Assembly (NCBI GenBank): GCA_018222965.1
Contig: JAAEZH010000027.1
Span: 1 to 64,000, forward strand
Length of the DNA: 64,000 bases
From: Bacteroidota bacterium
GTDB lineage: Bacteria > Bacteroidota > Bacteroidia > Chitinophagales > Saprospiraceae
Direction: 5' to 3'
Below the pieces are notes generated by a model, which was given only the letters and a program-made list of their open reading frames with translations, ran no database searches and was not told the DNA's origin. Shown here one piece after another: positions 1 through 43,641 of this stretch (the stretch's first letter is position 1; each line of letters opens with the position of its first letter). The translations under genes were made by a program, and so were the position numbers.

Positions 1-518
1 AGAGATGTATAAATGTCATCCTTGGGAGTTCCGTTATAGTGTTGGCTTTTAATAGTCTCCAAGTAAATTTTATCAATTTTATTAGCAGTTTTTACGAGAA
101 GGTGAGACTTGAGAAATGACTTGCGATAATAAAAATAGGATTCTGCATTGTTTTCCCAGTAATGATATTGTAATAAAAAGGATGATAACGTTTTGGTTAC
201 CCGGTGAAATCCAAAATCAATAGATGTTTTGATAGTTTCCTCAGCTTTTAAAACAGCCTCCTTAGCCTTGTTATTCTGTTGAAGGGTATTTATTATGGCA
301 ATATTTGATAAGCATTGATAGTAGTTTTTTCTGGTTTTTTGAATTATGTATTTTGGAGTGTTTAGTAATAAGTCAACATATATTAGATTTCTAAGGTGTA
401 TTCTATTACTATGTGTAAGTTCCTTAATGGAAGTTTTTTTTAGGTTTTCCACTAAGAACTTTTGATTTGAATCTCGTATAGCTAAAATCTTGTTATATAT
501 TTCCTTTATTGGGGGCAT
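1..518 (-). CDS. Hypothetical protein, partial at left edge; possible third member of the AT-rich island family
   Basis: From the ATG at 518 the minus strand is open for 172 codons to the window edge, giving a Lys/Asn/Ile-rich, helix-rich protein (MPPIKEIYNKILAIRDSNQ at its start). I recognise no domain. It lies downstream of, and in the same direction as, two related AT-rich genes and has the same composition and helical look, so I infer it belongs with them. The start is uncertain. Another frame begins with an ATG at 582, only 47 bases after the preceding stop codon, and reads MTSTKIILEKLSIQLQT before stopping near 493. A single-base slip in the run of five G/C at 511-515 would join that frame to this one. 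The gene may therefore be frameshifted, or the assembly may hold an indel. Confidence 0.6.
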   Translation of the reverse strand, partial: MPPIKEIYNKILAIRDSNQKFLVENLKKTSIKELTHSNRIHLRNLIYVDLLLNTPKYIIQKTRKNYYQCLSNIAIINTLQQNNKAKEAVLKAEETIKTSIDFGFHRVTKTLSSFLLQYHYWENNAESYFYYRKSFLKSHLLVKTANKIDKIYLETIKSQHYNGTPKDDIYTS

Positions 519-629
519 CAATGTGGTGTTTAGTTTGTAATTGAATGGATAGCTTCTCTAAAATGATTTTTGTGCTGGTCATGAATAAAACTAGGCTTCT
601 TCTATTCTGAGAGTTTATAGCAGGTTCGA

Positions 630-1904
630 TTATTTGATGAAACTCCTCGCTTTTTCTAGAACCATAGATATTAATCGCTCATAGGGGATAATTTCATTTT
701 CGGCTGCTATTATCCTTTGTAAGATCGGTGCATTCTTAAGTTTTACTATTGATTTTTTTGCTTGATTGTTGATTTGAGGGATTGAGGTGCATTGGATGAA
801 TACATTGAATAGCAATTGGGAAAATATAAGGTCTCGGTAGTTTTTATTCTTTCGATGTATTTTTTGAGGGATGAACTTGGGGAGGTTTTGTATGAACTTA
901 GTTTTTTGACCTTTCATTACATACAAGAACAATTCTAAGTTTTTGCTGTATGGTTCATTTGAAAGGAAGTGGTTTTTTAAACTGTTAGTGGAATGGGTTG
1001 AAGTATAGTTAGAGTTGGATATGTTTTTTAGAGTTTGCAGTAATTCATTATCTTTTTTTGTTCTAGCCTTTACTTGGATATTTTCATAATTTAGAATAGA
1101 ATATCTGAAGTTAATCACAGATTTATATTTAATAGGCAAGTCGCTATTTAGTATTGATTTCAAAGTTTTACTAGTGCTCTGATTTATTTTGTATCCGAAG
1201 TTTGTAATTCTACCCAAGCTCAAAAAAATTGTAAACAAATAAGCGTCTTTTTTTGACCAGCTTTTTTTTGGGTTGTTCACCTCTTGGTTGAGAAATTCGA
1301 TGGCAGGGGCTATTTCACCAGAGTACAGTAGTTTCCTTGCTCTGAATAAGATTATTTCTGGCCTAAATTGCTGAATAATTTGTTCGGAATAACTTTCAAT
1401 TGGTGTGTCCTGGAAATAATATTTTGGTGTTAATATTTGATTTAGAGGGTTTGTAATGTCCAGAACTGGTGGAAATAGGTGGGATGTTAAGGTTAGGTTT
1501 GTTAGGGAATTTTCGAATTTTTCAGCTTTTTCAAGTAGAGCAAAATTTTCTTGATTTTCTTTTTTTCTTTCAAGGTGGTGTATTGATAAATTATGCATTC
1601 TTCTAGCTGCTTCAAAAGATGCTGTGGGGATAATTATGGAATTTTTTTTTGTGTATTTTAAGATTTTTTTGTCAATCTCAATTTGAGAGTTATTGAGGCT
1701 GTTTCCAAATAGAATGCGGGATACAATATCTAAAACTTTAATTCTATATCTTTTTAAATCTCTTGTAGCTTTTTGCTTTTTTTGAGAAAGCAGTAGGTTT
1801 ATCTCTTTTGAGTATTTTTCAGATAGACTAAATGAATTTTTCGTTGGGGATGGTAGTATATTGTTATGATCAGATATTAATTGTTTTAGTTTCGATAGCT
1901 TCAT
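630..1904 (-). CDS. Hypothetical helical protein of the AT-rich island (424 aa)
   Basis: Unrecognised protein of 424 residues with no signal peptide or membrane segment, rich in Lys, Asn, Ile and Ser. It looks like an all-helical, TPR-like repeat protein. It resembles its upstream neighbour (1910-3433) at both ends. Near the N terminus both have a basic helix followed by a hydrophobic stretch (RDLKRYRIKVLDIVSRILF here, NRLKRKLTERVLNTMFFID there). At the C terminus both end with an IPYE-(R/E)-L motif (EIIPYERLISMVLEKA against IEYIPYEELWELALQS). The gap to the upstream gene is 5 bases, so the two are probably co-transcribed. Codon use is far more AT-rich than in genes after 4.2 kb, which suggests transfer. 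The function is unknown. Confidence 0.75.
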   Translation of the reverse strand: MKLSKLKQLISDHNNILPSPTKNSFSLSEKYSKEINLLLSQKKQKATRDLKRYRIKVLDIVSRILFGNSLNNSQIEIDKKILKYTKKNSIIIPTASFEAARRMHNLSIHHLERKKENQENFALLEKAEKFENSLTNLTLTSHLFPPVLDITNPLNQILTPKYYFQDTPIESYSEQIIQQFRPEIILFRARKLLYSGEIAPAIEFLNQEVNNPKKSWSKKDAYLFTIFLSLGRITNFGYKINQSTSKTLKSILNSDLPIKYKSVINFRYSILNYENIQVKARTKKDNELLQTLKNISNSNYTSTHSTNSLKNHFLSNEPYSKNLELFLYVMKGQKTKFIQNLPKFIPQKIHRKNKNYRDLIFSQLLFNVFIQCTSIPQINNQAKKSIVKLKNAPILQRIIAAENEIIPYERLISMVLEKARSFIK

Positions 1905-1909
1905 GTTTA

Positions 1910-3433
1910 TTACCTTAATTGAATAATTTTATTGTCAAGAGATTGAAGAGCTAGTTCCCATAATTCCTCATACGGTATATATTCTATTCCACTCTTTTGA
2001 ATGGAGTATTCTAAAGGCATTGATTTAAGCTTAGATATTAGGTGTTCAGCGTTTCTCTTTGCAGCAGTCTTATTAAAATTTGATTTAGGTAATACCAATA
2101 GCATTTTAATAAAACAGTTTGATCTGAATGTGTCATTTCTGCGAAGGTGTCTATGGCAGTATGATTTTAAAGAATCGATCTTGTCGATTATTACCGCATA
2201 TTTTTTTTGTTGTAATAAAAATAGTACCTGAATTATAATGATGGTAATATTTGCACCTCTTTTTTCTCTTGAGAATTTTGGCACATCGTTTACAAATCTG
2301 GATAGTCTAAATTCTCTATGAGATTTAGGTAAAGGTTTTATTTTGCCTAAATGATGCAGATAGTGAATGAAGCCTTCTATAATTTTCCATGGTTCCAAGA
2401 ATGAGTCTTGGAGAGAAGAAAATCTCTTTACAGAAATAGTTTGACTGTATAGGTCACTAGCCTTTTGGTACTCCTTTGCATGTAGATATAGAATAATAAG
2501 TTGTTGGTTTGTAACAAACCAATTATTGCTATGCAGAGTTAAGAGGCTTAATGATTGTTTGGCTATAGATTCTCCCTGAATGTAGTTTCTCTTCGCGATT
2601 ATAATAGGCAGACTTTCGTTTAGGTATAGGGCAATTAAATTTGAAGGTTTATATTTTTTGGATTCTTTGAATTTTGAAATGATTTCTTCGCAGATTTGAA
2701 TTACCATCTCCTGGTTGTTTTCTGCATTATATCGGATCAGTAGAATATAATAATAGAATTGAATAAACCTTAATGAGTCTACACTGTCTTTTATTGGTGC
2801 TAATTTTGTTACAATCTGTTTAGCTTTTGTAGCAACTTTCTGTGGTTGTCTCTTGGAAAGCAATACCAATTCAGTATAATTGTCTTCAACTAAGATCTCA
2901 TGGTTGTAGATTTCTTGATATGCATTTTGTATTGATTTGTATTTATTGAACAGTCTTCTGTTTAACTCCCATTGACCATAATGGGATTTAAGCGTTTTAG
3001 CTAAGTTGACAGTTAAGTCTGTAAATTCAAAAGTGATTGTTTTTTTGATTGTTTGTTCGGATAGTTTTATTGCAGTTTTACGTCCACCCCGTCCTAAAAG
3101 AATTTTTATTTCAGCAAACTTTTTGTGACAATGGTAGTATGCCTTTTGTAGATTGTTGAATTTGGATGATGAAGTGTCAATAAAGAACATGGTGTTCAAT
3201 ACCCTCTCAGTTAACTTCCTTTTAAGTCTATTGTAGTACTTTTTTGCAGTCTTTTGGTCTTTGTCTGGATATATTAGCTCTGCTGCTTCCTGGTCGGTTC
3301 TGACCTTGCCTAATGCTATTAAATCGTAGAGTTCCTTATACTTTGATTCTCTGCTATACCCACTTCCAATTACATCAATTCTCTTTACTTTATTTCGGTT
3401 AACCAGCGATATTAGTTCAGCTAATTCCTTCAT
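1910..3433 (-). CDS. Hypothetical helical protein of the AT-rich island (507 aa)
   Basis: This 507-residue protein appears to be the first gene of the minus-strand island operon. Residues 30-90 (LYDLIALGKVRTDQEAAEL, then a basic helix ending NTMFFID) look like a small helical domain. The rest is a chain of helices that resembles degenerate TPR repeats, with no signal peptide. The C-terminal IPYEELWELAL is shared with the neighbouring 424-residue protein. Proteins of this appearance are known to me only as hypothetical Bacteroidota proteins, and I cannot assign a reaction or partner. The gene is AT-rich and is followed after 5 bases by its paralogue. The upstream region (3434-3620) is also AT-rich, and I could not place a clear -7 box there. 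Confidence 0.8.
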   Translation of the reverse strand: MKELAELISLVNRNKVKRIDVIGSGYSRESKYKELYDLIALGKVRTDQEAAELIYPDKDQKTAKKYYNRLKRKLTERVLNTMFFIDTSSSKFNNLQKAYYHCHKKFAEIKILLGRGGRKTAIKLSEQTIKKTITFEFTDLTVNLAKTLKSHYGQWELNRRLFNKYKSIQNAYQEIYNHEILVEDNYTELVLLSKRQPQKVATKAKQIVTKLAPIKDSVDSLRFIQFYYYILLIRYNAENNQEMVIQICEEIISKFKESKKYKPSNLIALYLNESLPIIIAKRNYIQGESIAKQSLSLLTLHSNNWFVTNQQLIILYLHAKEYQKASDLYSQTISVKRFSSLQDSFLEPWKIIEGFIHYLHHLGKIKPLPKSHREFRLSRFVNDVPKFSREKRGANITIIIIQVLFLLQQKKYAVIIDKIDSLKSYCHRHLRRNDTFRSNCFIKMLLVLPKSNFNKTAAKRNAEHLISKLKSMPLEYSIQKSGIEYIPYEELWELALQSLDNKIIQLR

Positions 3434-3620
3434 GGTTCTTATTTGCTTTAATTAAAGGCTAATATATGTTCCTTTTTATTGATTAGCAATAAGTTATGTG
3501 TTATTTTGTTCGTGTTTTTTGTTTTGTAGGCTGGTTTATTTCGTGTTTTTTGATGGTGACTTGATTGAGAAAGACCATTAGTTTTAAACTGTTTTTAAAA
3601 AAAACTTAAAGTTTAAAACT

Positions 3621-3743
3621 ATGGCAATCTTAATTTCACTTCTTCTTTCGCTGGGGGTTATTGGTTCTGTTGATGAGGCAACTTCAGAGGTTCTTCAGTC
3701 AAACTGCGATCTTATTGTTCAACAGGACATGGACGAAATGTAG
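3621..3743 (+). CDS. Candidate small hydrophobic protein (40 aa)
   Basis: A 40-codon frame starts at ATG 3621 and begins with a hydrophobic segment (MAILISLLLSLGVIGS) followed by an acidic tail ending QQDMDEM. It could be a small membrane or secreted peptide. A hairpin with a T-run (3778-3806) lies 35 bases downstream in the right orientation, which supports a short plus-strand transcript. I see no ribosome binding site, but these are usually absent in this phylum. I do not recognise the sequence, and it could be chance. Confidence 0.35.
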   Translation: MAILISLLLSLGVIGSVDEATSEVLQSNCDLIVQQDMDEM

Positions 3744-3777
3744 TTGTTTGCTTTTTATTGGCATTTTTGGAATTATA

Positions 3778-3807
3778 AACACCTGTTGAACAGGGTGTTA
3801 TGTTTTT
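3778..3807 (+). terminator. Rho-independent terminator after the candidate small gene
   Basis: AACACCTGT pairs with ACAGGGTGTT across a short loop with one bulged G. The stem is followed by a run of seven T. It would end a plus-strand transcript carrying the 3621-3743 frame. Confidence 0.55.
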
Positions 3808-3951
3808 TTACAGGGGTTTCTTGTGAAACCTTGTGGGGTTTTTATTGGGATATTCGAATGTGAGTTCGATGTATCCTCTTATATATTTGTATCACAATCA
3901 GTCTTAAACAAGACTTCATTCCACTTCCATACTTCCGTAAAAACGCTCCGA

Positions 3952-3987
3952 GGGGGCATCAGATCGCTCGATCTGGTGCCCTTTTTC
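3952..3987. terminator. Strong, possibly bidirectional terminator
   Basis: GGGCATCAGATCG (3954-3966) pairs with CGATCTGGTGCCC (3969-3981), with one G-U pair. A T-run follows on the plus strand, and an A-run (3940-3944) lies on the other side. No long gene precedes it on the plus strand, so it may end an RNA or small transcript from the border region. Confidence 0.6.
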
Positions 3988-4244
3988 TTTGTTGCCATTA
4001 AATCAAAGAACATCAACAATGCTTTGCAATTGCATGAATTGCAGAATAGAGGTGGGGGGTAAGTGCTTTTTAGTAAAGGTTGGGTTTAGGCTTAAAGTTC
4101 GAATTCTCCAGACTTTAATGCTCAAGGGAAGAGTACAAATATAATAAGAAACCGGGAATTTGACTCCAGGTTAAGTAGTTGGCCTGAATTTAGAGCAGGA
4201 GATAATGGTGTTTTATCAGTATGAAGCGGTTTGATCGATTGATT

Positions 4245-7022
4245 TTACGGTGCTTTGCCAGAGGTAGCTTCTTCTTTCAGTTGCTCTAGCTTCTCTGCCT
4301 TTTTGTGGCTCCGCCGACTGATATTGCTTGAGGTATGGTATTGGTGACTGGTCAAAAACTTCACCTGAATGTTTAACCAATCTGATTTTGAAAGATTCTG
4401 TCCTCGATTTAATAACTCCTGGTAGAGTTGGGCAGAAATTTGATCATAATCCTCCCTGCCCAAATAGTCGAGATCCGCATCGCAAAGGATACGAGAAAGA
4501 TGATCCTGGGGAGCCTGCGGTACTTTGGTCGCCAAAATCATGCGGACGATTTGCTGTATTTCCGATTCCTTATATCCATAGCCCGGCAGTAAATCAGCTG
4601 CCATACTTGCTCCAATAGCTTCATGATCTCCAGCTTGCTGAAGAAAACCAAGGTCGTGAAGAAGGGCTGCCGTTTGAACCAACCCCTGTTCCGCAAAAGG
4701 AATGCCTTCCAAACTACAGAGCTCTAAAGCTGCCTGTTCTACATCCAGGGTATGCCGATAACTGTGGTATACATATTTCTTGTCCAGCTCATTACTCAGA
4801 CGGTCTAAGACCATCTTCCGGAATCCGTTTAAGTCGTAGTCCAGATTTCTGTCTTCTACAAAATACATCTGCTGTTCCCCTTTGCCCTTGGCCTCCACCA
4901 GTCCCCGGTCGGTGCACTTAAAGTGTGTTTTGACAAGTTCATAGGTTGCCGCTGATATATTGACTTTCCCCGGTTGGCCGCTGGCTTCCATACGAGCCGC
5001 AAGATTTACTGTGTCTCCCCAGATGTCGTAGGCGAATTTTTTATTACCCACTACTCCGGCTACTACCGGACCGCTATGTACCCCAATCCGTACTTCAAAA
5101 GTAGGAAGCCCGGCAGATCGCCTGCGTTCGGAGTAACTTTCCATCCAGGCCCGGATGTCCAGGGCTGCATTGACTATACGGGTCGCATGGTCGGATTGAG
5201 GATCCGGCAGGCCGCTGGCACACATATAGGAGTCCCCAATGGTTTTAATTTTCTCAATGCCATAGCGGTTGGTGATTCGATCGTAGGCGCGAAAGCATTC
5301 ATCCAGCATGCCTACCAGTTCTTCCGCGCTGAGCTCTTCCGCAATGGATGTAAAGGATTTAAAATCGGTGAATAGTACACTCACTTCTTCATAAGATCGA
5401 GCCTCTGCTTTCCCTTTTGTTTTTAGTTCTTCTGCGGTACTCTGCGGCAGAATGTTGAGAAGCAATTCCTCAGAACGCTGACGCTCGGTCTCAATGATCT
5501 CGTTTTTCTCGGCCAGGTCTTTATTGGCCCTGGTTTTAATGCGATTTCGGTTGACGAGCAGGAAAACGACCAGCATCAGCCCCATGGCCCCGCCGATCAG
5601 GGAGTAAAAACGGATCTGCGCCTGCTTCAACTCAGCTTCTTGCAGCTTTAATTCCTGATTCTGACGATCAATTTCGTATTGCTTCTTTCGATCACTGTAC
5701 ATGATCTCCCGTCGCTCATTGTCCTTGATTTGCTTTTCGTTCATTCGGTCATAACGGGTCTCATCGTAGAGCTTCCGAAATTCATAGGCCCGTTCAAATT
5801 CACCGGTTGCTGCGTATACCCGGGCCAGGTCTTTATAGGCATTCTGCAAAGCCTTTTGATCTCCAATATCTTCTGAAAGGTCGAAGGATTTCTGCACATA
5901 GTCCAGGGCGAGGGCGTATTTGCCCTGTCGCCTGTAAACATCTCCAAAGCCGTTGTATAGCTGTAAAATACCTTGCTTATTATCCGATTCCTGCCATATT
6001 TCCAGTGCTTGTTCGAAGAGGTCCAGGGCCAACTGCCATTCCAATTCGGCGGAAGCCGGATCATCCAGCTTGTTGTAAAAAGAGCCTCGGTTCTTATGGG
6101 TTAGACCTATGTTGTTGAAAATCTCTGCCTGGCCTTCCAGGTCGTCCAGGCTTTCGCGAATGACCAGCGCTTGCTCATAGAGCTTTAGCGAATTGTTGGT
6201 CTGTTCCAGCGCCGCTTGGTATTGATCTTCTTCATAGAGGGAGTCTGCCCGGTAATCGAGTACATTTGCCATGTTGTTTAAGACGGAGGACTCTTCCCAG
6301 TCATTGCCGGCATCCTGGTGGAAACTCAGGGCGCGTTCATACCAGCCCCAGGCTTCCCCCTGCCTGTCCAGCTCCATTTTTATATTGCCAATGACGTTGT
6401 AGGCATTCCCCAGATTGTCTTTGTTGCCGGTTGCTTCCACCATCTCCAGATATTGGAAGATAAAATCCAGGGCTTCCGGATAGTTTCCCATGCTCTCCTG
6501 AAGGATGGAAATATTGTAATACAGCCGCATGATTCGACTGGTATCCTGCAAGTCTTCCCGAATGCGCAAACTATTGAGGTAGTTCTCGAGCGCTTCTGTA
6601 AAGTCGCCCAGGTTTTCCCGCACATTGCCAATATTATTGTATAGCGAAGCTACACCCTGTTGGTCACCCAGCGAGTCGCGGATGATCAGGGCTTTTTCAA
6701 AGTAACTAACTGCTTGTTCCCGCTCTCCGTGTATATCTTCTACAACTCCGCGATAATTGAGGGCATCCCCCATGCCTGTTGGGAAACCGATGCTACGGGC
6801 TAATTCGAGGGAAGTACCAAGGATTTTGCGGGCAGAATCGGGATGGTCGAATTTCAACTCCCAGCCCAACTCATTGAGCATCTTGACCCGGTTGGAATCG
6901 GGAGGAGCCGTTTTGAGAACCCGGCCTAAACTGTCTGAATAGCTTTCATCCTGCGAAAAGGCAGTTATCCCGCTGAATAGCAGGACTAAAATGGCTGTAA
7001 AACATAAGACGGGCCGATTCAT
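4245..7022 (-). CDS. TPR - class III adenylate cyclase - HD domain fusion
   Basis: This 925-residue signalling protein has a signal peptide (1-23), about eight TPR-like repeats (60-420), a coiled coil (425-470) and a membrane helix (about 472-491). The cytoplasmic part holds a class III cyclase domain (540-725). Its metal aspartates D553 and D597, adenine-selecting K593 and D666, and transition-state N673 and R677 are all present, so it should make cAMP from ATP. An HD domain follows (735-890), with H753 and H757 in YHSYRHTLDV, H789-D790, and D848/D850. HD domains of this kind often hydrolyse phosphoesters, so it could degrade cAMP or another nucleotide. That point is inferred. The TPR part is predicted to be periplasmic. 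The stop of the neighbouring minus-strand gene and its terminator lie about 20-70 bases upstream, so its own promoter must be compact. Confidence 0.88.
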   Translation of the reverse strand: MNRPVLCFTAILVLLFSGITAFSQDESYSDSLGRVLKTAPPDSNRVKMLNELGWELKFDHPDSARKILGTSLELARSIGFPTGMGDALNYRGVVEDIHGEREQAVSYFEKALIIRDSLGDQQGVASLYNNIGNVRENLGDFTEALENYLNSLRIREDLQDTSRIMRLYYNISILQESMGNYPEALDFIFQYLEMVEATGNKDNLGNAYNVIGNIKMELDRQGEAWGWYERALSFHQDAGNDWEESSVLNNMANVLDYRADSLYEEDQYQAALEQTNNSLKLYEQALVIRESLDDLEGQAEIFNNIGLTHKNRGSFYNKLDDPASAELEWQLALDLFEQALEIWQESDNKQGILQLYNGFGDVYRRQGKYALALDYVQKSFDLSEDIGDQKALQNAYKDLARVYAATGEFERAYEFRKLYDETRYDRMNEKQIKDNERREIMYSDRKKQYEIDRQNQELKLQEAELKQAQIRFYSLIGGAMGLMLVVFLLVNRNRIKTRANKDLAEKNEIIETERQRSEELLLNILPQSTAEELKTKGKAEARSYEEVSVLFTDFKSFTSIAEELSAEELVGMLDECFRAYDRITNRYGIEKIKTIGDSYMCASGLPDPQSDHATRIVNAALDIRAWMESYSERRRSAGLPTFEVRIGVHSGPVVAGVVGNKKFAYDIWGDTVNLAARMEASGQPGKVNISAATYELVKTHFKCTDRGLVEAKGKGEQQMYFVEDRNLDYDLNGFRKMVLDRLSNELDKKYVYHSYRHTLDVEQAALELCSLEGIPFAEQGLVQTAALLHDLGFLQQAGDHEAIGASMAADLLPGYGYKESEIQQIVRMILATKVPQAPQDHLSRILCDADLDYLGREDYDQISAQLYQELLNRGQNLSKSDWLNIQVKFLTSHQYHTSSNISRRSHKKAEKLEQLKEEATSGKAP

Positions 7023-36088: not shown

Positions 36089-37018
36089 TCAGAAGACCTT
36101 TTCGTATAACTCTCTTTCTTTGGATTTGCCAATACTGCTGCGATCTTCCAGAATTTCGAATACATTGTTTCGAATCGTATGTGCAATATCTCCCGTAGGA
36201 AGATCATTACAATCCAGTCCGAAGGGATCTTCGATTTCCTCTCCAAGAAGTTCTACGCCCAGCAAGGCAAAGAAAATGAACATGACCAGAGGTATGGTCG
36301 CATAGTGGAAGGTGTTGATAAGGGCAAAGGGCAGCAACACGGCATAAGCAGAGATGAAAATCTTCAAATAAACACTGTAGGAAAAAGGAATAGGTGTTTT
36401 TTTGATCCGTTCACAGGCTCCCAGAATATCTAATAAGGCCTGATGTTGGGCTTTGATATTAATATAATCGCCTTCATTGATCTCTCCTTCGCGATGCCCC
36501 TGTGCGATACGGTCAAATATCTGCATGGATATGTGGTTCGGAACATGTCCTTTTTTTTCGTACTCCGCTCGTTCCACATCCTTCAGATAGATCAGCTTAT
36601 CCAATTTGGTGCCATCACGGAGGTGTTCTGCCAGTGCGTAACAAAAGTTGGAAATGTGTTTGGCAAAGAAATGTCGAACCCGCTCGTTCTTTTTGGGGAA
36701 CATGGTATTGGCATAGATCGCCAGGTTACGAGAGTGGTTTACCAGCGCACCCCATTGTTTCCGACCTTCCCACCAGCGATCATAGGCCGTATTCGTTCTG
36801 AATACCAGGAAAATACTCAGAATTACACCAAGTAAGGAAAAAACAGAGGTATTCATAGAGATGTATTCGCCCCATTCAAATTGTTCAATAAGGACGCAAA
36901 CAATAAGGGCATATACACCTATGCCTATTACTGCCCGCGAAATTCTTACCATAGTCCAGCTGGTGGCTAAATGCCGAATGTCTCCCAGCCAGTTATCGTT
37001 CGTTTTGTAATTGATCAT
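36089..37018 (-). CDS. Bestrophin-family ion channel
   Basis: 309 residues with four membrane segments. The bestrophin signatures are FRTNTAYDRWWEGR near 75 and GEEIEDPFGLDCNDLP near 265. Bacterial bestrophins form pentameric pores, usually for cations, in the inner membrane. It lies downstream of the receiver-flavoprotein gene in the same direction, with 112 bases and a direct repeat between them, so co-transcription is possible but not shown. Confidence 0.9.
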   Translation of the reverse strand: MINYKTNDNWLGDIRHLATSWTMVRISRAVIGIGVYALIVCVLIEQFEWGEYISMNTSVFSLLGVILSIFLVFRTNTAYDRWWEGRKQWGALVNHSRNLAIYANTMFPKKNERVRHFFAKHISNFCYALAEHLRDGTKLDKLIYLKDVERAEYEKKGHVPNHISMQIFDRIAQGHREGEINEGDYINIKAQHQALLDILGACERIKKTPIPFSYSVYLKIFISAYAVLLPFALINTFHYATIPLVMFIFFALLGVELLGEEIEDPFGLDCNDLPTGDIAHTIRNNVFEILEDRSSIGKSKERELYEKVF

Positions 37019-37130: not shown

Positions 37131-38801
37131 TCAACTTTCTGCTAAATACTCGTGTACAAATTTTATAGCCATCGCTCCTTCTCCTACAGCGGATGCCACC
37201 CGATTCATAGCACCCGAACGTACATCCCCTGCCGCAAAGATTCCGGCTTCACTGGTTTCCAGCAGGAAGGGTTCTCTGTTTCTCTTCCAGGCTTTTGCAA
37301 ACTGGTCTCTTCTAATTAATTCCTTTCCGGTTTCTATATAACCTTTTTCATCCCGGAGCAGATTATCGGGTACCCAGTCTGTATATGGTTTGGCCCCGAT
37401 GAAAATAAAGAGTGCATCAGCGGGTACTTCTGAATAACCTCCCTGCTCCATATCTTCTATACAAAGCTTCTCCAAATGTTTTTCTCCAAAAGCTTCCTTT
37501 ACTTGTCGGTAGCCGTGTACACCAATATTGGGAATGCTGTTTATCTGATCTATCAGATAGGAAGACATGGTTGCTGTCAGGTCTGGTTTGCGTATTAATA
37601 TGTGTACTTCTTTAGCAAAGCGAGACAGGTACACCGCTCCTTGCCCGGCCGAGTTTCCTCCGCCAATAATGTACACGATCCGATCACGACAAGCATTCGC
37701 TTCGGTCATAGCTGCCCCGTAATAGATACCCGCCCCGGTGAATTTTTCAATTCCTGCTGTGGGAAGGGTACGGTAAGAAACCCCGGTAGCTAAAACGACT
37801 GCACGGGTGTTGACAGTATTGCCGTCGGCCATGAGGATCTTCTTATACTGCCCGGCAGATTCAATGCCTTTCACTTCGGTTGGAGAGAGGAACTCGACTC
37901 CAAAACGAGTCGCCTGCGTAATGGCCCTTCTCGAAAGGTCTGCGCCGCTTAAGCCATTGGGAAACCCCAGGTAGTTTTCAATCCTCGAGCTGGTTCCCGC
38001 CTGACCACCGGGAGCATGTCTTTCTACCAGTAAGGTTTTTAGCCCTTCAGAACCTCCATAAACAGCTGCTGCCAACCCGGCCGGACCTGCTCCAATAATA
38101 ACGACATCGTATAATTCGTGTTCGGCAGAAGATCGGAGCCCGACTTTCTCTGCTACTACTTTTATGTCCGGATCCTCCTCCCAGCTGCCGTCTTCAAAAA
38201 CAACGACCGGGAATTTTTCCGCTCCGATTTGCATGACTTCCATGATCTCTCCGGCTTTCCGGTCCAGGCTGATGTCCAGCCAGTGGTAGGGCACCAGGTT
38301 GCCCGCCAGAAAGTCTTTAACCTTATGAGACTTTGGAGAATATTGATATCCGATAACTTTGATGCCCGATAATTCGGGAATGTGATCCAATTGCCACTCC
38401 TCCAATAGCTCATCCAGCACCGGATACATTTTCTCTTCCGGGGGGTCCCAGGGTTTCATCAGGTAATAATCCAGATTAACATCATTAATGGCCCGGATAG
38501 CAATATCCTTATCAGAATAAGCAGTAAGCAACACCCGCTTTGCCTGCGGATAAAATTTGCGGGCCTTATCCAGAAAATCTACTCCCATCATTCCCGGCAT
38601 CCGTTGATCGGAGAGAAACAAAGCAATATCTGCGCCTTGTTTTTTGAGTGCTTCAACCGCTTCAAGTGCTCGTTCGGGAGATTCTTCGTTTAGAATGCGG
38701 TATTCTTTCTTATATCGGTTCCGAAGATCTCGCTTGATCGACCGAATCACCTGCGGATCGTCATCGATCGAAAATATAATAGGTTTCTTATCAGTGGCCA
38801 T
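37131..38801 (-). CDS. Receiver - glutaredoxin-like - thioredoxin-reductase-like flavoprotein fusion
   Basis: 556 residues. Receiver domain (8-130): acidic pocket SIDDDP, phospho-acceptor D65 in LFLSDQRMPG, and K116. A thioredoxin/glutaredoxin-like domain follows (145-225), whose active site reads SPKS in place of CPxC. The C-terminal half is a thioredoxin-reductase-like FAD/NAD(P)H module (230-556) with GAGPAG, GGGNSAGQGAVYLSRFA and AGDVRSGAMNRVA, but no CxxC disulfide. It is probably a flavoprotein whose electron output or affinity is set by phosphorylation; the reaction is unknown. The cognate kinase is almost certainly the gene immediately upstream (38892-40298). No CxxC pair remains anywhere, so classical thioredoxin reduction is unlikely. 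Confidence 0.9.
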   Translation of the reverse strand: MATDKKPIIFSIDDDPQVIRSIKRDLRNRYKKEYRILNEESPERALEAVEALKKQGADIALFLSDQRMPGMMGVDFLDKARKFYPQAKRVLLTAYSDKDIAIRAINDVNLDYYLMKPWDPPEEKMYPVLDELLEEWQLDHIPELSGIKVIGYQYSPKSHKVKDFLAGNLVPYHWLDISLDRKAGEIMEVMQIGAEKFPVVVFEDGSWEEDPDIKVVAEKVGLRSSAEHELYDVVIIGAGPAGLAAAVYGGSEGLKTLLVERHAPGGQAGTSSRIENYLGFPNGLSGADLSRRAITQATRFGVEFLSPTEVKGIESAGQYKKILMADGNTVNTRAVVLATGVSYRTLPTAGIEKFTGAGIYYGAAMTEANACRDRIVYIIGGGNSAGQGAVYLSRFAKEVHILIRKPDLTATMSSYLIDQINSIPNIGVHGYRQVKEAFGEKHLEKLCIEDMEQGGYSEVPADALFIFIGAKPYTDWVPDNLLRDEKGYIETGKELIRRDQFAKAWKRNREPFLLETSEAGIFAAGDVRSGAMNRVASAVGEGAMAIKFVHEYLAES

Positions 38802-38818
38802 GAGGGGGAAATAGTTTG

Positions 38819-38882
38819 TCCCGATAGCTATCGGGATGAGTTTGGGTTTGGGTTTGGGTTTGGGTTTGAGTTTGGGTTTGAG
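38819..38882. repeat. Palindrome plus (GGGTTT)n telomere-like tract
   Basis: The 18-base perfect palindrome TCCCGATAGCTATCGGGA (38819-38836) is followed by six-base repeats of the type TTTGGG/TTTGAG up to 38882. It lies between the kinase stop (38892) and the receiver-flavoprotein start (38801). The palindrome is a motif I have often seen between genes in Bacteroidota. Confidence 0.85.
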
Positions 38883-38891
38883 AGTGAGGAT

Positions 38892-40298
38892 TTATTCTGT
38901 TGGTATCATGATTCGGAAAGTAGTCTTGCCTGGCTCAGATTCAACCTCAATGCGTCCTTTCATGCGATCCACGATTCTTTTGGTAATATCCAGCCCCATA
39001 CCGGTTCCTTCTCCAATTCCTTTAGTCGTGAAAAAAGGATCATAGATTCGACTCAAGACTTCATCCGGAATGCCCGGGCCGTTGTCGGTGATTTCCACAC
39101 AGACGTATTGTCTTACTGCTTCGGCGCGAATGCTGAGGGTTCCTTTTTCCGGGAGTGCATCCAGCGCGTTGTCAATGATATTGGTCCAAACCTGATTGAG
39201 TTCATTGACATGCGCCTTGACCGTAGGGAGGTCTTCCGGAAAAGATTTCTCCAGTATTACCTGCTTTCGTTTAATCTTGTGTTTTAGGATCATCAGCGTA
39301 GAATAGATCCCCTCTTTTACCTGAATAGAATCCTTCGCCCCGGATTTGTCCATGTGTGAATAATCTTTTATGGAGCGAACCAGGTTAGAAATGCGATCTG
39401 CCGCTTCCCGAATTTCACCGATAAGGGTTTCCAGACTCAGGGTGCTTTCGAGCCACCACAGGATAGCCGGAAGATCCTTGCCCTGGATAATTCCCTCAAT
39501 TTTCTCCAGATCATCTGTTGAAAGCGAGTAATCGGCAAACGTATTAGCGAGGTCATCCCCGTCATCGATCCCGTGGTCCTCGAGCCAATCGATAAGGTCG
39601 TCCTCAATTTCGGAACGTTCTAAAACGGATAAATCTTCATTTATTCCGGCTTCAACCTTAGCAAAAAGCAGATCGTTTACCTGGTCGGTCTGTTCGGGGG
39701 TGACCCTCATGTTCATGATGGCCTTAAATTTTTCGGGAGTGCTATGTACTTTCCCATGTAGTTCTCTGGCTGTACGTACCATCGCAGAGGCAGGGTTATT
39801 GAGCTCATGGGCCAATCCGGCAGACAGCTTACCCAACGCCAGGAGTTTCTCATTTTGCGTGCGCATCTGGGTGAAGTTCCGGATGCGGTTAGACATGAGT
39901 GCCACCAGGTTTTGTACCAGGTCGTAATCGACATTGACCAATTCGATAAAATGATCGCGATGCAATTCCAGGACATAGGTATCCTGGAGTGCACGGCCAT
40001 TTGCCCGGGATTCCTGCATGCGGGAAAAGGGCAGTACACCGGTGGTATAGCCTGCTTCATTGGTACCAAATTCGCGGTATTCTCCGCCTTGTTCAAATTC
40101 AATGATGTATTCGCCCTCCATAATAATCTGCATACTGGTAGTAGGCTTTTCAGGGTAAAACAGCAGATCTCCTGCCGGATAGAGGAGGTATTCAGATTTA
40201 CTGATCAGCCAGCTCAGACTTTCGTCGGATATTCCTTTATATCCTTCAAAGTTGCGCAGGCGTTCCAGCAAATCAGCGGGTTTATCGATTTGCTTCAT
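38892..40298 (-). CDS. Sensor histidine kinase with N-terminal cyclic-nucleotide-binding domain
   Basis: 468 residues, no membrane segment, so cytoplasmic. Residues 20-125 form a cNMP-binding (CAP-like) domain, including YPAGDLLFYPEKP and a segment with the phosphate-binding-cassette position RMQESRANGRALQ. A HisKA helix carries H164 in GLAHELNNPASA, and the ATPase part has N377 (NIIDNALDA), DNGPGIP and GEGTGMGLDI. About 130 residues lie between the His helix and the ATPase. It should autophosphorylate and pass phosphate to the receiver of the next gene (38801-37131). The nearest cyclase gene is divergent, starting 227 bases away. I infer cAMP, or a related nucleotide, as its ligand. Confidence 0.9.
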   Translation of the reverse strand: MKQIDKPADLLERLRNFEGYKGISDESLSWLISKSEYLLYPAGDLLFYPEKPTTSMQIIMEGEYIIEFEQGGEYREFGTNEAGYTTGVLPFSRMQESRANGRALQDTYVLELHRDHFIELVNVDYDLVQNLVALMSNRIRNFTQMRTQNEKLLALGKLSAGLAHELNNPASAMVRTARELHGKVHSTPEKFKAIMNMRVTPEQTDQVNDLLFAKVEAGINEDLSVLERSEIEDDLIDWLEDHGIDDGDDLANTFADYSLSTDDLEKIEGIIQGKDLPAILWWLESTLSLETLIGEIREAADRISNLVRSIKDYSHMDKSGAKDSIQVKEGIYSTLMILKHKIKRKQVILEKSFPEDLPTVKAHVNELNQVWTNIIDNALDALPEKGTLSIRAEAVRQYVCVEITDNGPGIPDEVLSRIYDPFFTTKGIGEGTGMGLDITKRIVDRMKGRIEVESEPGKTTFRIMIPTE

Positions 40299-40524
40299 TC
40301 GTTTAGGTTGATAGTCTGCTTAGGAGGATTCCATTATGCACAGACTGTAAGGCAAACAACAAAATGGAAAATATAGTTTTTCCGGCAAATTGTCAGGCAA
40401 CTTCGAGTTTTAAGTAAATTCCCCGAAAGGGGGCAAAAAACCCAATCAGATAAGCGATATTGAGACAGGTTTTGCAATCCGACGGCTGTTTGCCATTTTT
40501 GCAATAGTAGTGTTATGATCTGAA
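40299..40524. promoter_or_regulatory. Divergent promoter region of the kinase and the sensor cyclase
   Basis: 226 bases between two divergent start codons. A CCCCGAAAGGGGG hairpin lies near 40421. I could not place exact TAnnTTTG boxes, so promoters are inferred only from the gene layout. Confidence 0.4.
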
Positions 40525-43500
40525 ATGAACCGAAAATTCTTATATCCGTTGTTTTGCCTGTTTCTTCAGGCTGCTATTCTGTCGGGACAGACTACCGACT
40601 GGCAGTTGCGGATCTATGGATTTGAGGAAGGCTTGTCTCATCGAAATGTTTTTTGCGTACAGCAAGACAGCAGCGGATATTTGTGGATTGCTACGGTTAA
40701 TGGACTGAATCGCTACGACGGCTATGAATTTACACAGATAAATAATAATACCCGACCGGATCTCCTGGCACAGGACTATGTATCGGATATTTATTGCGAC
40801 AAGGAGAACCACCTGTGGCTGGCACATCCAAACTTCCTCACCGGACTAAACTCGGTCGAGTTTACTTCAGAAAAATTAACGGTTAATCCGCACTCTTTGG
40901 CTCGCGGGGCTGAATGGAGTCCCAATTACATAGCAGCAGATGCTGCCGGCAATTTATGGATCAGCACTTTCGCCGAATTGGAAGGGCTGGCGTTCCTGCA
41001 ATGCTTTTCGCCGGAAGGCGAATTACTTCTTGAACGCAAGTTGGACGGGCGTTTTGAAAAACGGCCATTGTTGATCCACAATGGAGAAGTTTATGTAAGT
41101 GGGAGTGAAAATGAGGTATGGCGTATCACTATGTATGGAACGCTGGAAGAAAAATACACTTTCTCTTTTCAGGGAAATGATCCCTCTGCTTCCCGAATCG
41201 TTGAAATCAAAGAAGATTATGAAGGACGTTTGTTGGTCCTGCTGGCCAATGGTTCGATCTATTTCAAAAATCCGGGAAGCGATGAATTTATCGTTCATCC
41301 GATTAGCGCCTCCTTAGCCGGAACAGACGTATTTGAAACCCTGCTGGCAACCCCGGAAGGCGATCTTTGGCTGGCATCCAAAAACGGATTAATCCTTTTT
41401 GAAGGGAAAACGGGCAATTGGTGGGATTTTCACCGCGATATCCGGGAGCAAACCCGACATGATCTTCAATACAGACAGATTTATTCAGATGCTTCCGGTG
41501 TGGTATGGGTCGCTTCCGATTTTGGCCTGATAAAACTGGTGCGCCGGCGGCAGTTCTTTTATTCACATCTGAGTGGCGGCAATTCTTATTGCAGCAGTGG
41601 CTTTTGCAGTATTCGCGGAATCACGGAAGACAATCAGGGGCAGATCTATTTTTCTTATTACAACTCGGTTCACCGGCTGGATCCCAACTCCGGAATTAGC
41701 AGCCCCTTGTTTCCGGATAATGAATTTGTAAATGCGCCTTTTGGTTTGCAGTGGTATGAAAACAAACTATATACCGGAAATGGCATGCGCATCGACCCGG
41801 TCAGCCTGGCGGTAGATACGTTGTTTGAAGGTAAAATTACCGATGCAGGACATCCGATTATCGGGCCTTCCGGCAAATTGTGGATCGGGTACCAAAATAA
41901 GCTCCATGTTGTGGATAAGGGAGGGAAGCCCGAAAGATATATGGATGTAGAAGAGGTGCTTGATACCTTTACGCTCCAAATTACGCACCTTCACTTTGGT
42001 CAGCGAAGTGGCCAGTTGTGGGTGGGTACCGTGAAAGGAGGCTTGTTTCAGCTGGATGTAGAATCGGGCGATTTTAAATCATTCAGGACTACTGAGAATG
42101 GCTTGCAGCACAACCGCATATTAGCAACATATGAAGACCCAAACGGCCATCTCTGGATAGCTACCGCTTCGGGTTTGCACGAAATAGATCTGGTCAATGA
42201 ATCCATTCAGATTTGGGATATGGAACGCGGGCTGCCGAATAACTTTATCAACGGGATATTACCGGAGGGGGATTCCTGCTTGTGGGTTAGCACAGACAAT
42301 GGTATGTCGAGGATCAGTTTGGAAACCGAACGTTGTTTCAATTTCTATCGGGAAGATGGCCTTCCGGCGAATGAATTTAACCGCATCTCCTTTTACCGCG
42401 CTACATCCGGACGGCTGTACTTTGGCGGCTTAAACGGGGTAGTTTCTTTCTTTCCGGACCCTGAATTTGTCTGGGCTCGAAATCGGCGTCAGGCCAAGTT
42501 GCTGCTGACCAATTTTTCCAAGTTTGACGGGGATATTGATTCTATGATCAGCCTGCCGGTGCGCTCAAATCCGGGCACCCCCATTCACTTGTCCTGGAGG
42601 GATAAGTTCTTCACTTTCAGTTTTGCCCTGGCAGACTATGTGAGCCCGCGTGAAAATCGATACTCTTATCGACTCCGGGGCTATGACCGCGAATGGTCGG
42701 AACCTACCACCGTGCCTACTGCCCGATACAATAATATACCTGCCGGCGATTATACTTTCGAAGTGCGGGCGGCATCCGGTAATAATGCATGGAGTCCGCA
42801 AGTGCTGGAAGTACCTCTCAAAATAGAGCAGGCCTATTACAAAAGTTTATGGTTTATCGGGATGTGCGGCTTATTGTTGGCCGGAATGGTCTATGGCTTC
42901 ATGCGCTATCGCATCTATACCATCCGCAAGCGGGAACGGGAGCTGGAGGAAGAGGTGCGCCGCCGTACCCTGGAACTGGAAGAAGAAAAAGCCAAATCGG
43001 ATGACCTGCTGCTCAATATTCTACCCGCAGAAACTGCCGAAGAGCTCAAGAGTAATGGTTCGGCGAAAGCCCAGCGATTTGAATCGGTGACTGTCATGTT
43101 TTCTGATTTTATCGGCTTTACCAATATTGCCGAAAAGCTCGAACCGGAGCAACTCGTAAAAGAAATCGATTATTGCTTTCGGGCCTTTGATGAGATCATG
43201 GAGATGTATGGGGTCGAGAAAATCAAGACCATCGGAGATGCATATATGTGTGTGGGCGGATTGCCTGGAACTTCCCAAAAGGCAGCCGTTCAGGTAGTCA
43301 AAGCTGCTTTGGAAATGCAATCTTTTATGCATGCAATTGCTGTGGAGCGAGACCTCTCCGGTAAGCCCCACTTTGAAGCGCGGATCGGCATCCATTCGGG
43401 ACCGGTTGTTGCCGGGATTGTCGGAATAAAGAAATTTGCCTACGATATTTGGGGGGATACCGTAAATATTGCCGCCAGATTGGAAAGCAAAGGGAAATCC

Positions 43501-43641
43501 GGAAAAGTAAACATCAGCAAATCGACCTATGAACTGGTAAAAGATGTTTTCAATTGTAGTCCTCGCGGAAAGATCAAGGTGAAGAACAAAGGAGATATTG
43601 AAATGTATTATGTGGAGGGACTGAAAATGAAAGAAGTATGA
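40525..43641 (+). CDS. Beta-propeller (HTCS-like) sensor fused to class III adenylate cyclase
   Basis: 1038 residues. A signal peptide (1-22) is followed by two seven-bladed-type propellers built from Reg_prop repeats (30-650; e.g. GLSHRNVFCVQQDSSGYLWIA and HLWIATASGLHEID), a Y_Y_Y domain (about 700-765), a membrane helix (773-793), a coiled coil (800-825) and a cyclase domain. Cyclase residues D861 and D905 (metal), K901 and D974 (adenine), and N981 and R985 are all present, so cAMP is the predicted product. Hybrid two-component sensors of Bacteroidota have this outer part with a kinase; here the output is a cyclase. The periplasmic ligand is unknown. It is divergent from the cNMP-binding kinase and overlaps moaD by four bases. 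Confidence 0.92.
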   Translation: MNRKFLYPLFCLFLQAAILSGQTTDWQLRIYGFEEGLSHRNVFCVQQDSSGYLWIATVNGLNRYDGYEFTQINNNTRPDLLAQDYVSDIYCDKENHLWLAHPNFLTGLNSVEFTSEKLTVNPHSLARGAEWSPNYIAADAAGNLWISTFAELEGLAFLQCFSPEGELLLERKLDGRFEKRPLLIHNGEVYVSGSENEVWRITMYGTLEEKYTFSFQGNDPSASRIVEIKEDYEGRLLVLLANGSIYFKNPGSDEFIVHPISASLAGTDVFETLLATPEGDLWLASKNGLILFEGKTGNWWDFHRDIREQTRHDLQYRQIYSDASGVVWVASDFGLIKLVRRRQFFYSHLSGGNSYCSSGFCSIRGITEDNQGQIYFSYYNSVHRLDPNSGISSPLFPDNEFVNAPFGLQWYENKLYTGNGMRIDPVSLAVDTLFEGKITDAGHPIIGPSGKLWIGYQNKLHVVDKGGKPERYMDVEEVLDTFTLQITHLHFGQRSGQLWVGTVKGGLFQLDVESGDFKSFRTTENGLQHNRILATYEDPNGHLWIATASGLHEIDLVNESIQIWDMERGLPNNFINGILPEGDSCLWVSTDNGMSRISLETERCFNFYREDGLPANEFNRISFYRATSGRLYFGGLNGVVSFFPDPEFVWARNRRQAKLLLTNFSKFDGDIDSMISLPVRSNPGTPIHLSWRDKFFTFSFALADYVSPRENRYSYRLRGYDREWSEPTTVPTARYNNIPAGDYTFEVRAASGNNAWSPQVLEVPLKIEQAYYKSLWFIGMCGLLLAGMVYGFMRYRIYTIRKRERELEEEVRRRTLELEEEKAKSDDLLLNILPAETAEELKSNGSAKAQRFESVTVMFSDFIGFTNIAEKLEPEQLVKEIDYCFRAFDEIMEMYGVEKIKTIGDAYMCVGGLPGTSQKAAVQVVKAALEMQSFMHAIAVERDLSGKPHFEARIGIHSGPVVAGIVGIKKFAYDIWGDTVNIAARLESKGKSGKVNISKSTYELVKDVFNCSPRGKIKVKNKGDIEMYYVEGLKMKEV

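Follow-up and report, generated by a model that had tools for sequence, protein, structure and literature searches.

Gene order and sequence conservation indicate that the histidine kinase and the receiver-flavoprotein encoded side by side in the stretch of Saprospiraceae DNA analyzed here (64,000 nucleotides, hereafter the window) are a real, ancient two-component pair. In the best reading of this pair, to which we give slightly better than even chances, a two-component system has as its output a non-thiol NAD(P)H flavoprotein under the control of phosphorylation.

The open reading frames at the locus are all real and intact, three of its four genes are conserved well beyond the genus, and ORFs and profile matches located the genes and domains where the initial annotation had described them. 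The receiver-flavoprotein (556 aa; 37131..38801, minus strand) consists of a receiver domain (residues 9-121; 38439..38777, minus; PF00072, E 3e-14), a glutaredoxin-like domain that was absent from the initial annotation (residues about 146-222; 38136..38366, minus; mycoredoxin model, E 2e-7) and a thioredoxin reductase (TrxR)-like FAD/NAD(P)H domain (residues 229-555; 37137..38117, minus; TIGR01292, E 4e-69, with a score under the family cut-off). Its partner kinase (468 aa; 38892..40298, minus), made up of a cNMP-type domain, a DHp domain with a helical insertion and a HATPase domain, is separated from it by 90 bp. A gene for a bestrophin-family channel (36089..37018, minus; profile E 5e-75) does follow in the same direction, 112 bp downstream of the receiver-flavoprotein, and a gene combining a Reg_prop propeller, Y_Y_Y and a membrane class III adenylyl cyclase (40525..43641, plus strand; PF00211, E 8e-57) is, as had been reported, divergent from the kinase. 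No Bacteroidetes-type promoter was found with a strict pattern in the 226-bp divergent gap. Within the kinase/flavoprotein intergenic stretch lies a perfect palindrome, CCCGATAGCTATCGGG (38820-38835), adjoined by a run of GGGTTT hexamers and present in 34 copies in the genome and none in a reversed control. Elsewhere in the window, GC content is 31-33% at 1-4000, possibly acquired DNA, vs about 47% in the rest.

Among 99 full-length receiver-flavoprotein homologues, 83 proved to have a kinase of the same family no more than 9 kb away, and for 75 of them the distance was 600 bp or less. This sample favoured close homologues and counted one contig twice (L039, L063); at the other 16 loci no family kinase was present within the surveyed flank. 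Paired homologues span Bacteroidota, Cyanobacteria, Actinomycetota, Deinococcota, Acidobacteria, Chloroflexota and Burkholderiales, and a scan restricted to one genome per species resulted in 80 loci over many phyla. On plasmids of Gloeothece, Streptomyces, Tsukamurella, Deinococcus and Caballeronia the two genes adjoin one another, and in Nostoc they are close together. In Saprospirales relatives the orthologous kinase usually precedes the receiver-flavoprotein; the upstream position holds for Bacteroidota more broadly, and in most other phyla the kinase is downstream, a difference in order which argues that the pair outlived rearrangement. Additionally, the distance matrices of the 75 kinase/flavoprotein pairs correlated at r 0.82 vs a permutation maximum of 0.12, part of which is accounted for by species phylogeny. 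The proposed link from kinase to receiver-flavoprotein is thus supported by adjacency in many phyla, by correlated evolution and by conserved phosphotransfer residues. Other genes also recur around the system: a UBP-type zinc-finger gene in actinobacteria (L056 9119-9472, L057 9146-9496, L061 5283-5549), EgtB-/EgtD-like genes (ergothioneine synthesis) whose median gaps range over 1.6-2.6 kb (L074, L076, L081, L088) and an msrA-like gene (L053, L072, L077, L112), the Egt- and msrA-like genes being named by sequence reading.

The receiver carries the acidic pair, phospho-acceptor Asp, Thr/Ser and Lys of response regulators, with D13 and T93 present in all 99 full-length homologues, D14 in 98, and D65 and K116 each in 97; D65, the residue that the initial annotation had named for phosphotransfer, is the conserved phospho-acceptor. 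The FAD motifs (GxGxxG/GGQ) and NAD(P)H motif (GGGNSA) of TrxRs are near-invariant (alignments A3 and A6). The redox-active CxxC of low-Mr thioredoxin reductases is absent from the NAD(P)H domain, its place being taken in the window protein by YYGAAMT (residues 360-366; 37704..37724, minus) and family-wide by YYG[AS], with Cys at positions 363 and 366 in 0 of the 99 homologues. The CPYC site of the glutaredoxin-like domain is replaced by S-P-x-S-H, and neither the CxxC nor the CxxS of glutaredoxins and mycoredoxins is retained (Cys at the first position in 0/99, at the second in 3/99). As controls, the separate canonical TrxR of the same genome carries CAVC, and Grx-Grx-TrxR fusions of other Saprospirales (L051, L052) keep every CxxC (WCPDC, CATC), so the dithiol loss is specific to the receiver-flavoprotein family. 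The residue C371, which is Cys in 83 of the 99 homologues, might do single-thiol chemistry. Of the description of this output as thioredoxin-reductase-like, the fold and the FAD/NAD(P)H motifs therefore stand, and the dithiol centres of that family are gone.

In an AlphaFold model of the receiver-flavoprotein (mean pLDDT 87), residues 147-219 follow the order strand-helix-strand-helix-strand-strand-helix, which is of thioredoxin type, and the protein has a TrxR fold, with matches reaching Z 34. The model superposed at about 2 Å on flavin-reducing TrxRs (5mh4, Z 34.0, rmsd 2.2, 302 aligned; 1f6m, 2.5 Å), whereas flavin-oxidizing TrxRs differed by more than 7 Å (5mjk, 7.4; 1tde, 7.7). This is suggestive of a conformation of the flavin-reducing type, the conformation being AlphaFold's choice. 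The flavin-reducing conformation of TrxRs sets NADPH against the flavin. With no dithiol in the flavoprotein, electrons must exit by another route.

The partner kinase has the H-box, N-box and G-boxes of HisKA-type kinases (HATPase_c, E 6e-26), and H164, N377, D405, G407, G409, G433 and G435 are invariant in the 75 kinases; H164 (39807..39809, minus), within the H-box GLAHELNNP, is the predicted phosphorylated His. In the kinase model the first DHp helix is continuous from the cNMP-type domain (125-185) and is followed by a helical insertion (187-270) and then by the second helix (273-314). The insertion (residues 187-271; 39486..39740, minus) is all-helical, is retained in each of the 75 aligned kinases, contains no Pfam match, and lies in a stretch (186-290) that spans 101-108 residues in 75 of 75 kinases; such an insertion in the DHp hairpin may mark a separate kinase class. 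The cNMP-binding-type domain (residues 20-125; 39924..40241, minus) has the non-canonical cassette TTGVLPFSRMQESRA, and matches PF00027 at E 2e-6 with a score of 27.9 bits, where the cut-off is 27.5. Matches to PF00027 were found in 71 of the 75 kinases; in two others a receiver takes its place, and L048, where a different N-terminus is aligned, has neither. The cassette G-x-[LIVM]-P-[FY]-S-R is present in 53 of the 75, the Glu that contacts the cAMP ribose is kept in 16 (the window kinase, P0002, has V88, or G87, there), and the phosphate-contact Arg at column 98 is found in 5, with its placement in P0002 ambiguous by one residue (S97 or R98) and neither column conserved. A canonical in-register E..RSA cassette occurs in none of the 75, the single pattern match (L086) being out of register, and by sequence the domain lacks the cassette Glu and Arg-Ser/Thr of CRP-type cAMP-binding domains. 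It ranks 16th by score among 17 such domains in the genome. We rejected the cassette loss as a peculiarity of the kinase: several other CNB domains of the same genome are likewise without a canonical cassette, so the loss removes support for cAMP only. These residues suggest that the domain more likely senses a ligand other than cAMP or serves protein interaction.

Starting from the gene order, the pairing, the conserved residues, the loss of both CxxC sites and the predicted fold, we infer phosphotransfer, flavin turnover and the direction of control. A cytoplasmic kinase, with its cNMP-fold sensor and DHp helical insertion, would autophosphorylate on H164 and pass the phosphate to D65 of the receiver-flavoprotein, where the receiver would act via the cysteine-less glutaredoxin-like domain to control the TrxR-fold domain. 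This last domain is predicted to bind FAD and NAD(P)H and to be able to reduce its own flavin; thioredoxin reduction by a dithiol route should be impossible for it, and electrons would most likely pass to a non-disulfide acceptor.

That the FAD and NAD(P)H motifs are conserved is no proof of turnover, and the flavoprotein could have a sensor role. As a pseudo-enzyme it would be an NAD(P)H/FAD redox sensor in which a protein-protein output depends jointly on receiver phosphorylation and on flavin state, an explanation that we consider possible, if doubtful. Loss of both dithiol centres alongside strict conservation of the nucleotide motifs would fit such a sensor, as would relatives in which the same flavoprotein is placed under a cNMP-type domain, in the manner of a regulatory module; however, the NAD(P)H-to-flavin geometry is intact in the flavin-reducing-like model, and a conserved partner-binding output is not known. 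The flavoprotein as a phosphorylation-controlled thioredoxin or glutaredoxin reductase is, by comparison, extremely improbable. TrxR is its best match in sequence as well as a close one in fold, and cNMP-fused relatives bear the name thioredoxin-disulfide reductase at NCBI, but both CxxC sites are gone family-wide, a Cys-containing version of the same domain order exists elsewhere, and the genome already has a canonical TrxR. We therefore rejected thioredoxin reductase activity on these residues and on their retention in the Grx-Grx-TrxR fusions.

The initial annotation had an outside ligand drive the cyclase, cAMP bind the kinase, and the phosphorylated receiver control the flavoprotein. For this there is the divergent adjacency of cyclase and kinase, seen both in the window and in a single congeneric genome, a kinase domain that just passes the PF00027 cut-off, and a cyclase (P0003) that reads as adenylyl type, its class III catalytic residues (metal Asp, Lys/Asp specificity residues, Asn/Arg) all being present in the translation as read by eye. 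Synteny with the congeneric genome extends over the entire compared stretch, so the cyclase linkage there says little, and a cyclase beside the pair is found in the window's genus only. A profile search of 1.74 Mb around the homologues recovered only the two cyclases of the window itself (the second, also of class III, a 925 aa ORF at 4245-7022, minus), the congeneric locus, and one fragment adjoining a protein outside the receiver-flavoprotein family. Furthermore, a cyclase ortholog (42-46% identical) and the receiver-flavoprotein lie on different contigs in six Saprospirales genomes (G015, G016, G017, G019, G021, G030), two genomes (G002, G024) carry the ortholog and no receiver-flavoprotein, cyclase genes number five and cNMP-type domains 17 in the window's genome, and in some relatives the sensor domain of the kinase is swapped. 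The synteny check thus found relatives outside the genus that are never near a cyclase, and together with the missing cAMP contacts in the kinase cassette this leads us to reject the link from cyclase to kinase; the complete circuit is very improbable, and the cyclase is judged an unrelated neighbour outside the two-component system. The bestrophin gene is an occasional partner, and a better supported one. It occurs near the pair in seven loci, on the same strand in six of the seven with a median gap of 235 bp, and in Nostoc it is situated between flavoprotein and kinase. Outside the window, six such loci were observed vs 0.44 expected (P about 7e-6), or five when the congener is left out (P about 9e-5), the expectation being drawn from bestrophin density in Saprospirales and hence a background rate of one order only. 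These loci would suit a three-gene module in which anion flux is coupled to redox or energy state. We nevertheless think this module unlikely, with bestrophin missing beside the pair in more than 90% of loci and a close bestrophin encoded on another contig in several pair-bearing genomes.

The two-component system with a non-thiol flavoprotein output resembles several known proteins in part. TrxR-type ferredoxin-NADP reductases and YpdA-like flavoproteins have a TrxR-like fold without CxxC; the model matches one of them, Bacillus cereus FNR1 (8c3m), at Z 27.8 (rmsd 5.0, 303 aligned), but these proteins lack the receiver and glutaredoxin-like domains, and the window protein is closer to TrxR in sequence. 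Low-Mr thioredoxin reductase (TrxB) shares the FAD and NAD(P)H domains; the window protein differs from it by its receiver and its lack of CxxC. AhpF has these domains together with an N-terminal thioredoxin-fold region; there, however, the thioredoxin folds are tandem and carry CxxC, whereas the window protein has one glutaredoxin-like fold, no CxxC and an added receiver. Proteins named at NCBI as cyclic nucleotide-binding domain-containing thioredoxin-disulfide reductase share the Cys-less glutaredoxin-like and TrxR-like body, with about 43-48% identity across residues 145-556, and differ in having a cNMP-type input, with no adjoining kinase in the two loci read. Relatives from Deinococcus and Rhodococcus have this flavoprotein body with a cNMP-type input in place of the receiver, and the Rhodococcus version sits with dnaK, grpE, clpB and trxA.

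Fusions of a receiver to TrxR (REC-TrxR) appear in a census, which gives them as a Mycobacterium-like combination (PMC5847659), and the window protein, with a receiver N-terminal to a TrxR-fold flavoprotein, belongs to that architecture; the census passage that lists it does not mention missing Cys centres, a glutaredoxin-like linker domain or a conserved kinase partner. The literature searched yielded no functional study of the REC-TrxR family, which is annotated but uncharacterised and to which the window protein belongs. Whether the broader description holds, that of a multi-phylum system in which a Grx-TrxR flavoprotein without dithiols acts as a phosphorylation-gated NAD(P)H flavoenzyme or sensor under a DHp-insertion kinase whose cNMP fold has been adapted to another ligand, we regard as an even call. 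The points worth following are the family-wide dithiol loss and the conserved kinase partner. Judging from its residues, the database name thioredoxin-disulfide reductase, given to relatives, probably misnames the entire family, and correcting it points to a testable link from phosphorylation to NAD(P)H. An enzymatic redox output is rare among response regulators, and this family occurs in many phyla.
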